Shown here: in pieces, positions 51,212 to 56,980 of the stretch
Layout: the number at the start of each line of letters is the position of its first letter
How positions within the stretch are numbered: the first letter of the stretch is position 1
Assembly: GCF_002088935.1 (NCBI RefSeq)
Contig: NZ_NCSS01000006.1
Location: 900,407-964,406 of the forward strand
DNA length: 64,000 nucleotides
Direction of reading: 5' to 3'
Source of the DNA: Henriciella litoralis
Lineage (GTDB): Bacteria > Pseudomonadota > Alphaproteobacteria > Caulobacterales > Hyphomonadaceae
Translations under genes and position numbers: made by a program
The notes under the pieces: model-generated
What the model saw: only the letters and a program-made list of their open reading frames with translations
What the model was told of the DNA's origin: nothing
Database searches by the model: none

Positions 51212-51952
51212 ATGGAGTCCTCGAACCTAGACATCCCAGGCGTATTCCGCCTTGAAGGACGCCCCCAACGGGCTGATCCGGCCTTTCCATTAAGGCTTGG
51301 CAGCGAGGGCGTGCATGAGGTTTGCGAGGCCCGTCATGGCGATATGAGCGCGATGACCGGCTTTGTGCTGGCCGCTGCAGCCCCGCCTGCGGGGGCGATT
51401 GTCTGGATCCGGCAGTTCAACCTCTATCAGGAACATGGCGGCCTGCTCGAGGCCGGATTGCATGCCCTCTCGGCGCAGCGACCTGCTGTGCTGGGCGTCC
51501 ATACCAGAAAGAGTGCCGATACGCTCTGGGCAACCGAAGAAGCAATCCGGTCGGGTGCAGCTGGGCTTGTGATTACCGAGGTCGATACGCTGGACTTTAC
51601 AGCCTCGCGCCGCCTGACGCTGGCGGCCAGCCGGCATGGGGTGCCGCTCGTCCTTTTGCTGCCCTGGCGCCATCAGGGCACGAGTGCGGCGACGGCGCGC
51701 TGGCGTGTCTCTGCCCGTCCATCAGCGCCAAATCCTTTCGATACGCGTGCCCCCGGCGCCCTTCGCTGGCAGGCCGTGCTCGAAAAATCCCGTCAGGCTC
51801 CGCACATGGCGGACCGTGTCTTCAACATCGAGCTCGATAATGAAACGCTATCTCTGCGTGTGGTTTCCGGGCTGGCCACTGACCCGCCTGCGCCGCGCAA
51901 GACGCCGACAGAGCGGCAAACCCTTCCGGCCAGCTACCGGAAAACCGGCTGA
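51212..51952 (+). CDS. imuA: ImuA (SulA/RecA-like mutasome protein)
   Basis: 246 residues, the RecA-like partner in the ImuA-ImuB-DnaE2 damage-tolerance complex. The family core is visible from LRLGSEGVHEVCEARHGD, with TGFVLAAAAPPAGAIVWI and VDTLDFTASRRLTLAASRHGVPLVLLLPWRH. No Shine-Dalgarno sequence precedes the ATG, and the LexA box ends 2 nt upstream, so the message may be leaderless. The next in-frame ATG (51344) would cut off the conserved block. Its last 113 nt overlap imuB. Confidence 0.88.
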   Translation: MESSNLDIPGVFRLEGRPQRADPAFPLRLGSEGVHEVCEARHGDMSAMTGFVLAAAAPPAGAIVWIRQFNLYQEHGGLLEAGLHALSAQRPAVLGVHTRKSADTLWATEEAIRSGAAGLVITEVDTLDFTASRRLTLAASRHGVPLVLLLPWRHQGTSAATARWRVSARPSAPNPFDTRAPGALRWQAVLEKSRQAPHMADRVFNIELDNETLSLRVVSGLATDPPAPRKTPTERQTLPASYRKTG

Positions 51953-53561
51953 CGCGCCGCAAAAGCCATTTGTCCTGACAGAGACCGGCCCGCACGGCCT
52001 GCTGGTGGCGGCTGCCAATAGCTCTGCGCGCACGGTCGGCATATCGGCTGGGCTTGGCTTTACCGATGCGAAGGCGCGCTGCCCGGACCTTCTCTATGAG
52101 GAGATCGACCGGGAGGCTGATCGCAAGGCTCTGGCCGCTATCGCGGCATGGATGGTGCGCCTGTCCCCGCTCGTCGCGCTGGATGGCGAGGACGGGCTGA
52201 TGATCGAGACGACAGGCTGCGATCACCTGCATGGCGGCGAAAGGAAGATGATGGCGGCCGTGGAGGCCCTGCTCAAGCGCGATGCCATTCCCCATCAGCT
52301 TGGCCTTGCGAGCACGCCGGGCGCGGCGAGCGCTGTTGCCCGGATGCAGCCCGGCACAATTCTCGCTGATGGCAAGGAGGCAGACGGGCTTGCCAGCCTG
52401 CCTGTCAGCGCGCTTCGCCTGTCAGCCGATGCAGACACCCTGCTGAAGCGGTTTGGCCTTCGTCAGATTGGCCAGCTCTATGGCATTGACCGCAAGGCAT
52501 TGGGGCGGCGTTTTCAGTCGCGGGCGACGGCGGACGCGGTTCTATTGCGGCTGGATCAGGCTCTCGGGCTGCGGCGTGAGCCGATTGATCCGCTGGTGCC
52601 TGCGCCCGCCTTCTCGGTTCGCCTGCCCTGCCCTGACCCCTTGCTGGTCGTGGAAGGCATTCAGGCAGGGCTGGAGCAGCTGGCTGGGGAGCTTTGCGAG
52701 GCGCTGGCCGAGCTTGGTCAGGGCGCGCGGGCCTTTACCCTGCATGCGTTTCGCTCAGATGGGGAAGTGCGCTCAATCTCGATCACGCTGGCGCGGCCTG
52801 TGCGGACACCGAAGCATATTCTTCGCCTGTTTGCAGAGAAGACAGATCAGACCGATCCGGGCTTTGGCATTGACCTTCTGATGCTGGACGCTCACCGGAC
52901 CGGGCCGATGGACACCAGCGCAATGGCCCTCTCCGGAGATCTTGCGGCGAGTGACACTGACCCGGTCATGCTGTCAGCCCTGGCAGACCGGATCACAGCC
53001 AAGCTCGGCGAAGGGGTCGTGACCGTAACAGCGCCGGCGCAAAGCCATCTGCCCGAGCAGGCCGAGCGGGCGACCGCGTTTGATGGCGCCCTGCCTGCGC
53101 CCGGTGAAGCACCGCCGCGGCGAGGGCCACGTCCGATCCGTCTGATCAATCCGCCAGAGGAGATAAAAGTGCTGGCCGAAGTGCCTGACGGCCCGCCGCT
53201 TCGCTTTGTCTGGCGGCGGGTGCCACATGCGGTCAGCCGGGCAGATGGGCCTGAGCGACTGGCACCGGAATGGTGGACCTGGACATCGCCGCCGCCTGCA
53301 TCGACCAGCCCTGATGGGGTGGAACGCAAATGGCTGAACCCGAAACTCGACAAGCGGGCCGATGCGGCGCTGATCACGAAAATCCGCGCCGAACTTGAAG
53401 AAGCCGATATGGGAGAGCCGGTTTCAAACCTGCCCCGGGCGCGGGACTATTACCGCATTGAGGACACTGATGGGCGCCGCTTCTGGCTGTTCCGGCAGGG
53501 CCTTTATGATGATGGACGCGGCGGAGCACCGCGCTGGTTCATGCATGGGTTGTTCGCATGA
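51840..53561 (+). CDS. imuB: ImuB, Y-family polymerase-like mutasome adaptor
   Basis: 573 residues from the ATG at 51840, the start that gives the family N-terminus [16 protein letters not shown]; an upstream extension is out-of-phase imuA sequence. Y-family polymerase fold with palm-like parts ([41 protein letters not shown]) and an HhH-like thumb ([17 protein letters not shown]). ImuB proteins lack the catalytic carboxylates and act as the hub that joins DnaE2 to the beta clamp. The C-terminal region has the family's RLINPPEEI block. It overlaps dnaE2 by 4 nt. Confidence 0.9.
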
Positions 53562-56500
53562 GCCAGTATGCCGAACTCGCCGTCACGACGAATTTCTCTT
53601 TCCTGCGCGGGGCCAGCCATGGCGAGGAACTGGTGGCGCAGGCAAAGGGGCTTGGCCTTGCCGCAATCGGCATTGCAGACCGCAACACACTAGCCGGTGT
53701 CGTGCGCGCGCATCTGGCGGCGAAGGAATACGGATTGAGGCTGCTGGTCGGCGCCCGGCTTGTCACCGATGATGGCTTTGAGCTGATCACCTATCCGCAG
53801 GACCGGGCCGCCTATGGCCGTCTTTCGAGCCTGCTGAGCGAGGGCAAGCTGCGTGCTGAAAAGGGCGAGTGCCATATCCGGCTGGAAGACATCATGGCGC
53901 ATGCCGAGGGGCAGATCTTTATCGCCATGCCGCCGCCCAGCGCGGGAGAGGCGTTTCGCCTGCGGCTGGAATGGCTGCGCGCGCAATGGGGGGACCGGCT
54001 CTATCTTGCTGCGCGCCACGGCTTTGACGGGCAGAACCGGGAGAAGCTCGCCCGGCTGGCAGAGCTGGGCCTGCGCGCGGGGGGTGTGCCCATCGTGGCG
54101 GTGAATGATGTGCTCTACCACGCCGCCGAGCGCCGCCCCCTGCAGGATGTGATGACCTGCATCCGTGAACATTGCACCGTCTCCGAAGCCGGGTTCCGGT
54201 TGGAGGCAAATGCTGAGCGGCATTTGAAACCGCCCGAAGAAATGGCACGGTTTTTCAAAGGGTTCGAGCCAGCTCTTCGACGAAGTCTAGAGATTGTGGC
54301 GCGGTGTACTTTCTCTCTGGATGAGCTTGCCTATGAGTATCCTGATGAGCCTGTGCCGGCTGGTAAGACACCTCAAGCTCACCTTGAGGCGCTGACATGG
54401 GAAGGCGCGGAATGGCGCTATCCGGATGGCCTGCCGGACAAGGTGCGCAAGGCTTTGACCAAGGAGTTGAAGCTGATCAGCGAACTCGATTACGCGCCCT
54501 ATTTCCTGACCGTCCATGACATTGTCGCCTGGGCACGCGGTCAGGCGATCCTTTGTCAGGGGCGTGGGTCGGCGGCCAATTCGGCGGTCTGTTATTGTCT
54601 CGGCATCACGAGTGTCGACCCGTCGATTACCAGCCTCCTCTTTGAGCGGTTCCTGTCCAAGGAGCGTAAGGAGCCGCCCGATATCGATGTCGATTTTGAG
54701 CATGAGCGGCGTGAGGAAGTCATCCAGTATGTCTATCGCCGCTATGGCCGTCACAAGGCGGCGCTGACCGCGACCGTCATCTCCTACCGCCCGCGCTCTG
54801 CGGTGCGCGAAGTGTGCAAGGCGCTGGGGCTCTCGCAGGACATTGCCTCGGCGCTGGCCGGGACGGTTTGGGGCAGTTTCGGATCTGATGTGAAGGAGCA
54901 GCAGATCCGTCAGGCCGGTCTCGACCCGGCCAATCCGGTGATCCGGCGCGCGGTGCAGCTCACCCGCCAGCTGATCGGCTTTCCGCGGCACTTGTCTCAG
55001 CATGTCGGTGGTTTCGTACTGACACGAGGGCCGCTGGTCGAGACGGTCCCGATTGGCAATGCGGCGATGGATGAGCGCACCTTCATTGAATGGGACAAGG
55101 ACGATATCAGCGCGCTCGGCATTATGAAGGTGGATGTGCTGGCGCTCGGCATGCTGACCTGTATCCGCAAGGCGTTCGACATGCTGCGGCTTCACAAGGG
55201 CCTCGACTATGACCTCGCCACCATCCCGCAGGAGGATGAGGCGACCTATGATATGCTATGCAAGGGTGACTCGCTTGGCACATTCCAGGTCGAGAGCCGG
55301 GCGCAGATGAACATGCTGCCGCGGCTTCGACCACGGGTTTTCTATGACCTTGTGATCGAGGTCGCGATTGTCAGGCCCGGGCCGATACAGGGCGATATGG
55401 TGCACCCCTATCTTCGTCGCCGCAAAGGCATCGAGACCGTCACCTATCCGTCCCCTGCCCCCGAACACGGCCCAGCCGATGAGCTGGAAACCATATTGAA
55501 GCGGACAAATGGCGTACCGCTCTTCCAGGAGCAGGCAATGCAGATCGCCATGGATGCGGCGAAGTTTACCCCCGATGAGGCCAATGGCCTTCGCCGGGCG
55601 ATGGCGACGTTCCGCAAGGTCGGCACGATCCAGAATTATGAAGACATGATGGTCGAACGCATGGTCGCGCGGGGGTATGAGCGCACCTTTGCGCAGCGCT
55701 GCTTCGATCAGGTGAAGGGCTTCGGGGAATATGGCTTCCCGGAGAGCCATGCGGCGAGCTTTGCGCTTCTGGTGTACGTGTCGTCCTGGCTGAAATGCCA
55801 TCATCCGGACGTGTTCTGCGCCGCGCTTCTGAATAGCCAGCCGATGGGGTTCTACGCCCCGGCGCAGATTGTACGCGATGCGCGCGAGCATGGTGTGGAG
55901 GTACGCGAGGCAGACGTGAATTTTTCCGATTGGGACAACATATTGGAGCCTTGCGGTCGGGGTGAGATGGTCTTTCTTCCCCCGCCTGCGGGGGAAGTGG
56001 CCCGCGAATGCGGGGCGAAGGGAGCCTCCCAACAAAGCGTACCACCCTCCACGCGCCCCCTCCGCCCTTCGGGCACGTCCCCCGTCCTTCGACAGGCTCA
56101 GGATGAGGACGGGGGAGGAAAAGGCTCTCTCCTCGCTGTGCGGCTCGGCTTTCGCCAGATTGATGGTCTGCGTGAAGACGAGATGGAAGCGATGATGGCC
56201 GCGCGGGCGGGCGGGTTTGAGCAACCGACCGATATTCGACGGCGTACGGGGATTACACGGCGGGCCATGGAGCTTCTGGCGGCAGCAGATGCGTTCGGGT
56301 CGATGGGGCTGAACAGGCGCGAGGCGCTTTGGGCCGCGCGCGGGGAAGCGCCAGGCCAGTCCCTTCCTCTCTTTGCAGCTGCCGATACAGCAGATCAGGG
56401 CCGCGAGCAGGCCGCGAAGCTTCCGGAAATGCCGCTCTCGGAACATGTCCTGCAGGATTATCAGACGACGCGTCTCTCGCTGAAGGCGCACCCGATGTCC

Positions 56501-56980
56501 TTCCTGCGCAACCATTATGAGACGATGCGGACGCTGAGCACAAAGGCGGCGAGCGATCTTTCAAATGGCGCGCGGGTTCAGACGGCGGGGGTCGTTCTGG
56601 TGCGCCAGAGGCCGGGCTCGGCGAGCGGGGTTTGTTTCATCACGATCGAGGATGAGACCGGGGTCGCCAATCTGGTTGTCTGGCCAAACGTGTTTGAACG
56701 GTTTCGCGCTATCGTCATGGGCGCGCGTATCATCATGGTCAAAGGCCGCGTCCAGAAGGCAGACAATGTCACTCATATTGTGGCCGAACAGCTGATCGAC
56801 CGGACCGACGATCTTGGCCTTCTGTCAGAGACGAACATCACCGACCCGATGCGCGGCGTGCTGTCGAATGCAGACGAGGTGGTCAAGCCAATCCCTGACC
56901 GACGCGGACCGCCCGCGAAACCGGCACACAGTCATCCACGCAATGTGCGGATTATTCCCAACAGTCGCGACTTTCACTGA
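53558..56980 (+). CDS. dnaE2: Error-prone DNA polymerase DnaE2 with an in-frame repeat insert
   Basis: 1140 residues, longer than the ~1080 usual for DnaE2. N-terminal PHP domain ([15 protein letters not shown]), polymerase core with [12 protein letters not shown] catalytic aspartates, [17 protein letters not shown], then finger and helix-hairpin-helix regions, and a C-terminal OB fold ([26 protein letters not shown]). Between DWDNILEP (to residue 798) and [11 protein letters not shown] (from 858) lie about 59 residues rich in Pro, Gly, Arg and Ser that most family members lack. Their DNA contains two perfect 10-bp palindromes and a CTTCGACAGGCTCAGGATGA-type repeat. The frame stays open, so the polymerase may remain active. 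Starts with ATGA coupling to imuB. Confidence 0.9.
55976..56116. repeat. Palindromic repeat element(s) inserted inside dnaE2
   Basis: Left palindrome 55976-55997: CTTCCCCCGC, CT, GCGGGGGAAG (10-bp perfect arms). Right palindrome 56078-56116: TCCCCCGTCC and GGACGGGGGA arms around a 19-nt centre, CTTCGACAGGCTCAGGATGA-like, which resembles dispersed intergenic repeats of many alphaproteobacteria. Between them are GTGGCCC and ACCACCCTCC blocks typical of the same repeats. Everything is in frame with no stop codon. Confidence 0.82.

Follow-up and report, generated by a model that had tools for sequence, protein, structure and literature searches.

REPIN/RAYT systems are characterized by an inverted doublet of a hairpin unit. 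Palindromic repeats within genes are already a known kind of element, as follows from the accessible parts of Di Nocera et al. (2013, PMC3733652) and of a review by Delihas (PMC2229807). The former places REPs inside genes, many of them for DNA synthesis or repair, with DnaE2 and tRNA synthetases named, and for these intragenic REPs it mentions flexible linkers or loops and speculates about hypermutability. As far as the accessible text of that paper goes, CGTC repeats predominate in Alphaproteobacteria and are not associated with transposase genes, and genes of the same category carry REPs at different sites, with the exception of recB of two Xanthomonas species. Rickettsia palindromic elements (RPEs) are palindromic stretches of 105-146 bp that lie in frame in conserved genes, where they are apparently tolerated (Ogata et al. 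2000, via PMC2229807), and the available portion of the same review counts them in 19 reading frames. It also covers the CIR repeats of Caulobacter, which are ~110 bp long, dispersed, structured and GANTC-bearing, and which are reported there as absent from genes (Chen and Shapiro 2003, via PMC2229807). The accessible part of a paper on Coxiella MITEs (PMC5896051) yielded no polymerase case.

Here, we describe a repeat within the dnaE2 gene of Henriciella litoralis, analyzed in a 64,000-nt stretch of its genome (the window; the genome itself is G000 in what follows). Our main reading, to which we assign a probability of roughly 0.82, is that an inverted doublet of a dispersed non-coding repeat unit of ~50 nt, for which we use our own name U, entered dnaE2 and was tolerated as a disordered loop.

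The inserted element and its host gene

The features of the locus discussed below are as follows.

51636..53561, + strand: ImuB-like Y-family ORF, start codon uncertain (weak DNA polymerase IV matches, NCBIfam)
53558..56980, + strand: dnaE2 (imuC), error-prone DNA polymerase III alpha-type, 1140 aa (NCBIfam PRK05672, Pfam, model alignment)
55949..56140, + strand: DnaE2 loop A, residues 798-861 (64 residues, against a common length of 9 in the DnaE2s of other Alphaproteobacteria)
55973..56121, + strand: inserted element of 149 nt, an inverted doublet (U - spacer - U') read as DnaE2 residues 806-855 (outer arms; 13 sister-genome sites)
55973..56022, + strand: left U unit, ~50 nt, CTTCCCCCGC hairpin, then GTGGCCCGC..GCGGGGCGAAGGG (inverted repeats; U core pattern match)
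56056..56121, - strand: right U unit, inverted, with a second palindrome in place of its hairpin loop (inverted repeats; own-genome matches)
56086..56106, + strand: nested dispersed 21-nt palindrome CCTTCGACAGGCTCAGGATGA (29 other own-genome matches; G004 insert)

The 1140-aa ORF at 53558-56980 scores 1472 bits against the NCBIfam model PRK05672 (cut-off 939) and contains the Pfam domains PHP, DNA_pol3_alpha, finger, HHH_6 and OB-fold, i.e., both the family model score and the polymerase fold place it in DnaE2/ImuC. The HHH_6 match, 90 columns long in the model, is stretched over residues 779-923 because of the insert. Directly upstream, with a 4-nt overlap, lies the ImuB-like ORF, whose best DNA polymerase IV match in NCBIfam (1.3e-07) is below the cut-off; we take this ORF to be a putative ImuB and the pair to be a probable imuB-dnaE2 cassette. 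Loop A is flanked by the conserved DWDNILEP and RLGFRQI, with 64 residues between them when counted from the P on, and the dnaE2 frame runs through the whole insert region without a stop, just as originally predicted. The prediction had put the extra in-frame stretch at about 59 codons; the stretch is real, and measured against the 9-residue loop of the same-genus genome G002 it comes to 55 codons.

Both perfect palindromes on which that prediction was based are present, one of them being slightly longer than the 10 bp described: the left hairpin arms (55976-55985/55988-55997) are 10 nt and 100% matched, and the right arms (56078-56088/56106-56116) are 11 nt, also 100% matched, around a 17-nt loop. 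Outer arms at 55973-55984/56110-56121 (12 nt, 92%) bracket the 149-nt element, which starts exactly at codon 806 of dnaE2. The left U unit reads as a CTTCCCCCGC/GCGGGGGAAG hairpin followed by GTGGCCCGC..GCGGGG..GAAGGG, with the U core TCCCCCGCCTGCGGGGGAAGTG at 55978-55999. Within the window, CCTTCGACAGGCTCAGGATGA and TCCCCCGCCTGCGGGGGAAGTG each have a single match at up to 3 mismatches, and 100 dinucleotide shuffles gave a mean of 0.00. The dnaE2 insert of the sister genome G004 carries the 21-nt palindrome nested in the same way. The predicted RNA folding energy of the insert lies just marginally under that of shuffled sequences (z -1.6 for 163 nt; -2.0 for 192 nt, 60 shuffles), so the standing of the G000 insert as a repeat rests on its architecture and its copies, and folding energy was dropped as a proof. 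Of the 7 Rfam matches at E 10 or below, the lowest had E 1.6 and none came close to its gathering score. GANTC is absent from 55949-56140.

No further copy of the entire 164-nt segment was found in its own genome, which corresponds to half of one condition set against the repeat reading, and parts of it were searched instead; other copies had been expected, and these exist for the palindrome and for parts of U. With 40 of 44 candidates scored, at least 29 other own-genome matches overlap the 21-nt palindrome, and the right U part (insert query 90-120) recurs in at least 2 other places at 91%. When the insert itself is excluded, 29 own-genome loci are left, and 6 of them are covered by an ORF of at least 180 aa; five of these six ORFs retrieved no Pfam match and the sixth (L024) is the ORF of L023. 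In the same genome, CCTTCGACAGGCTCAGGATGA palindromes stand in opposite-orientation pairs 49-101 nt apart (e.g., C6:107371/107440, C6:2665885/2665950, C6:1585221/1585288, C6:233268/233369 and C4:598062/598111).

In G000 the U core pattern has 6 matches, one in dnaE2 and 5 elsewhere; it is present in 15 of 29 genus genomes, with a maximum of 31 matches in G004; the reversed pattern, used as a control, had 0 matches in all 29. We counted 155 U matches in all, and from the matches listed 146 were used after removal of overlapping opposite-strand ones, with one contig-end cluster of G022 set aside. The doublet architecture of the window element could be read at 13 sister-genome sites, 3 of them in a helicase gene and 10 in no recognizable conserved gene part, two of the latter (L370 and L371) just ahead of one. 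At L381 (G000:C4:306132-306740), two U doublets in opposite, head-to-head arrangement stand 510 nt apart and resemble a local tandem duplication. Thus, the element has copies outside genes, leaves the frame of a conserved gene open and, as described below, is missing from the same gene in relatives.

U copies in other genes were sought among the 88 distinct U clusters in fetched loci, a set that the dnaE2 copies of G000, G013 and G016 stand outside. An ORF of at least 160 aa with at least 100 nt on each side covers 33 clusters, and in 31 of these, i.e., all but L174 and L383 (dnaE2 of G004), the longest ORF was scanned: 9 are recognizable genes and 22 have no family. Under weaker cover, four ORFs at L370 (both strands), L371 and L379 extend known genes at the 5' end, with the repeat ahead of the conserved part, and L367 matched no family. 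The recognizable genes with U are dnaE2 (G000, G004, G013 and G016), the TIGR04121 helicase (6 genomes), glyS (2) and the pyruvate dehydrogenase E2 gene, PDH-E2 (1), and no others were found among these loci. TIGR04121 is a ligase-associated DNA-damage DEXH helicase; U lies in frame in that of G017, G025, G002, G018, G004 and G021 (loci L364, L365, L369, L183, L398 and L405), at three positions, and 9 of 15 genus genomes, including the window's own, are without such a helicase insert. In-frame copies were also found in glyS, the glycyl-tRNA synthetase beta gene, of G004 and G025 (L391 and L436) and in PDH-E2 of G022 (L429). Several of these intragenic copies were probably inherited, which puts the number of independent events below the number of genomes. 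One codon phase is common to 16 of 19 U unit matches at ten intragenic loci (the exceptions lie in L183, L391 and L405), and the peptide read in this phase, PPPxxGEV..GRRG..SPLR..TSPxxGGG, is rich in Pro and Gly.

As a candidate for the protein that moves U, we searched for the Y1/RAYT transposase (PF01797). No match was found in G000 or in the U-rich genomes G004, G017, G022 and G025, and matches occurred in 4 of 28 genomes (G010, G012, G021 and G066). Three of the 15 U-bearing genus genomes (G010, G012 and G021) match weakly, at or just above the cut-off, compared with 0 of 8 tested genus genomes without U, and no U core was present in the fetched flanks of the weak matches. A RAYT as the mover of U is unsupported in G000 and in the genomes richest in U.

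Empty and filled loops in the genus and across Alphaproteobacteria

Within the genus, loop A is short (9-10 residues) in genomes such as G002, G018, G021, G022 and G025, and long (42-118 residues) in G000, G004, G005, G013, G016, G017, G019 and G020. Close relatives with a loop of the same length but no repeat-like DNA would have spoken against a repeat; five same-genus genomes instead have the 9-10-residue loop. This outcome is to be qualified for G005, G017, G019 and G020, whose long loops hold no dispersed repeat in the genomes searched. Their inserts (L044, L043, L045 and L170, respectively) are related to one another, are not U and have no copies outside dnaE2 in 9 genomes searched; a 157-nt query from the G017 insert matched only dnaE2, in 6 of the 9. 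The U doublet occupies loop A in G004, G013 and G016 as well, and in G013 and G016 part of the G017-type insert stands beside it. The stretch GCCTGCGCGGTCGCTTGTG of the G017-type insert was also seen in a Ponticaulis insert (L078) that has dispersed copies.

In the DnaE2 tree, the inserted clade includes the short-loop G002, and the nearest neighbors G017 and G004, on very short branches, differ in their loops. Taken together, these placements indicate that loop contents turn over quickly, and the single landing of a repeat in an SOS polymerase, as first proposed, is too simple a history, although the repeat itself was correctly identified. We favor a loss or replacement as the origin of the short loop of G002; repeated gain is a less likely alternative. 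The genus has two DnaE2 lineages, with ~55-59% and ~75-89% identity to the window protein (e.g., G001, G003, G008, G011, G014, G015, G024 and G028). In three genomes dnaE2 is broken, i.e., into two ORFs in G020 (L170), by a TGA in G014 (L161) and into pieces at contig ends in G009 (L167 and L168), which we read as decay or assembly breaks.

Beyond the genus, loop A has at most 12 residues (commonly 9) in most of the alphaproteobacterial DnaE2s read. In the class sample, DnaE2 was found in 212 of 389 genomes; 127 loci were used from the matches listed and the loop was readable in 116, with at most 12 residues in 68, 13-33 in 42 and at least 34 in 6, the last being a biased rate, as the query's own insert pushes long-loop sequences upward among the matches. 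Mapped onto 147 full-length DnaE2s (7 loci lacking a full frame were left out), inserts of at least 15 aa fall at loop A in 23 sequences and at another position, located 14 match columns further downstream, in 24 sequences from Bradyrhizobium and relatives. Others lie near the C-terminus (columns 1053-1056) and, in 1-5 sequences each, at columns 55, 70, 122, 128, 827, 874 and 888; none lies in match columns 129-792. The second insertion point corresponds to residue 869 of the window protein, and its inserts, of 18-118 residues, look repeat-like by eye (L097, L106, L107, L117, L121, L131, L143, L205 and other Bradyrhizobium relatives). No insert of at least 15 aa, and one of 10 aa, was found in DnaE1 of 22 genomes, of which 15 had been chosen for a long DnaE2 loop and one (L249) contributed an 818-aa fragment.

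Combining the genus set and the class sample, loops of at least 34 residues occur in 21 distinct genomes. In 15 of the 21, further repeat copies of the insert were found in the genome that carries it (4 by the U pattern, and 6 of 7 plus 5 of 6 in two further searches), and among the non-genus cases the insert DNA recurs in its own genome in 11 of 13, with no second copy of the L120 and L202 inserts among the matches listed. The status of a mobile repeat is thus supported for 15 of the 21 long loops and not for G005, G017, G019, G020, L120 and L202. By their sequences, the repeat families lodged in loop A look unrelated: Sphingomonas L090 holds one inverted repeat, Caulobacter L137 another, L206 and L223, by eye, a CGTC..CCA unit, and there are further families besides. 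A folding z of about -2.0 or lower was obtained for 20 of 21 loops of at least 34 aa vs. 1 of the 14 with 25-33 aa (60 shuffles), a split which suggests that the long loops are mostly palindromic repeats and the shorter ones ordinary length variation. The proposition that every loop-A insert is a repeat was therefore rejected, given that 25-33-aa loops are mostly non-palindromic and that no further copy of the G017 type turned up in 9 genomes. On the tree, which omits 2 loci more than the full-length map, loops of at least 34 aa (19 of 145 sequences) require 10 changes, at least 9 of them forced by well-supported branches; a threshold of 25 aa (27 of 145, of which 8 are 25-33-aa loops) gives 14 changes, at least 11 forced.

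The loop as protein, and competing explanations

In an AlphaFold2 model of DnaE2 (mean pLDDT 79.2), which matches the E. coli Pol III alpha structures 2hqa/2hnh with a Z of 36.0, residues 801-855 have a pLDDT below 50 (block means of 24-30 up to 850). This stretch lies between predicted beta strands at 795-798 and 859-862, so in the model the insert forms the turn of a beta-hairpin. The suggestion that it is tolerated as a surface loop is supported by these results, with the surface position resting on the predicted model. Across six insert pairs, dN/dS was 0.52-0.92 vs. 0.06-0.10 in the gene core and insert dN exceeded core dN in all six; the ratio is inflated in the four pairs in which insert dS is below core dS, and the estimates come from small samples and a simple method, with aligned parts of the less similar pairs perhaps non-homologous. 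Amino-acid constraint on the insert is, in other words, relaxed, and we infer that the insert is translated and that the polymerase functions normally.

The course of events that we favor would run as follows. An inverted doublet of U, a REPIN/MITE-like element of Hyphomonadaceae, would have entered dnaE2 at a short beta-hairpin turn just ahead of the HhH region; since neither its length nor its frame closed the gene, it would be read as a Pro/Gly-rich disordered loop, and such a loop would leave the polymerase core intact. The insert would then persist because the turn tolerates many different soluble inserts, and the same turn would have taken unrelated repeats in other Alphaproteobacteria, with contents turning over between near relatives.

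We would like to note that tolerance alone would be expected to spread hits over many genes, and that the presence of U in just four recognizable genes counts against tolerance as the whole story. In this sample, U is plainly concentrated in damage genes. One could suppose that the dnaE2 and helicase inserts are kept for altered mutagenesis or repair, in line with the speculation in the accessible text of PMC3733652, and the list of recognizable genes, with dnaE2 in four genomes and the helicase in six beside glyS and PDH-E2, agrees with this, as does the helicase being hit at three positions. Nevertheless, selected modulation seems quite unlikely to us, considering that the dN/dS of the dnaE2 insert is 0.5-0.9, that the sequence, length and family of the insert all vary, that the short-loop G002 sits inside the inserted clade and that the loop is disordered in prediction. 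Less probable again is that SOS or damage genes are hit more often in the first place, e.g., through being exposed during induction, with tolerance as just a filter: the concentration of inserts in damage genes and the repeated use of the same few positions would fit, but glyS and PDH-E2 were hit too, and unrelated families in the same turn point to the protein. More generally, alphaproteobacterial dispersed repeats may lodge preferentially and repeatedly in DNA-damage-response genes (DnaE2 loop A; the helicase at three positions), with either insertion coupled to damage-induced synthesis or disordered loops selected as evolvable tuning knobs of mutagenesis; this broader idea we consider unlikely, if somewhat less so than either of the two just discussed.

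The remaining explanations concern the nature of the inserted sequence. A strong fold is predicted for it (-77.4 kcal/mol), as would suit an insert whose main role is at the RNA level, as a hairpin controlling dnaE2 expression, but a z of -1.6, a position ~800 codons into an ORF, where the hairpin would be translated through, and the unrelated sequences found at the same site make this role very improbable. Least probable of all is ordinary length variation, i.e., GC-rich low-complexity expansion or slippage that mimics a repeat. The 25-33-aa expansions, mostly without palindromes (z below -2 in 1 of 14), are probably of that kind; the G000 insert, by contrast, has perfect arms, a doublet architecture, dispersed copies and a chance expectation of 0.00. 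We therefore retain the entry and tolerance of a U doublet as the best explanation.

Comparison with known repeat systems

Like the GTAG/CGTC REPs, as portrayed in the accessible parts of Di Nocera et al. (PMC3733652), U is a short dispersed palindrome, often an inverted dimer, that also occurs within genes; its copies are dispersed, often arranged as inverted dimers and mostly intergenic. By eye, no constant GTAG or CGTC stands beside the U stem in the 13 doublets, and the window copy contains CGTC twice (at 56076 and 56083), neither being conserved among them. Unlike U, the inserts of L206 and L223 contain, again by eye, the CGTC..CCA unit. A further difference from the GTAG/CGTC REPs, judged against the available text of PMC3733652, is that here one DnaE2 loop has been hit repeatedly by unrelated families. 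The RPEs, as far as the accessible part of PMC2229807 describes them, belong to another host order than the window element, and we liken the two by description and not by sequence; they are spread over 19 reading frames, whereas many repeat families share one loop here. The relatives of the window element that were found belong to Hyphomonadaceae. CIR repeats, going by the same portion of that review (PMC2229807), resemble U in being dispersed, structured alphaproteobacterial repeats, and differ from the dnaE2 insert, which is without GANTC and lies within a gene. With the REPINs, U shares the inverted doublet of REP units.

In the open-access literature, which most subscription papers lie outside, we found no single DnaE2 loop shared by unrelated repeats, no genus-level turnover and no U family. 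What is apparently new, then, is the combination of a shared loop, unrelated families and turnover between close relatives. It amounts to a replicated natural experiment, in which one structurally defined loop of a mutagenic polymerase has received unrelated repeats and close relatives hold the empty alleles. Whether repeats in coding sequence are junk that is tolerated or a material from which proteins are built is an old question, and it becomes directly testable here, in a protein whose phenotype, the induced mutation rate, is easy to score. The puzzle of 2013, as it stands in the accessible text of PMC3733652, of why REPs sit in repair genes is brought into sharper focus as well.
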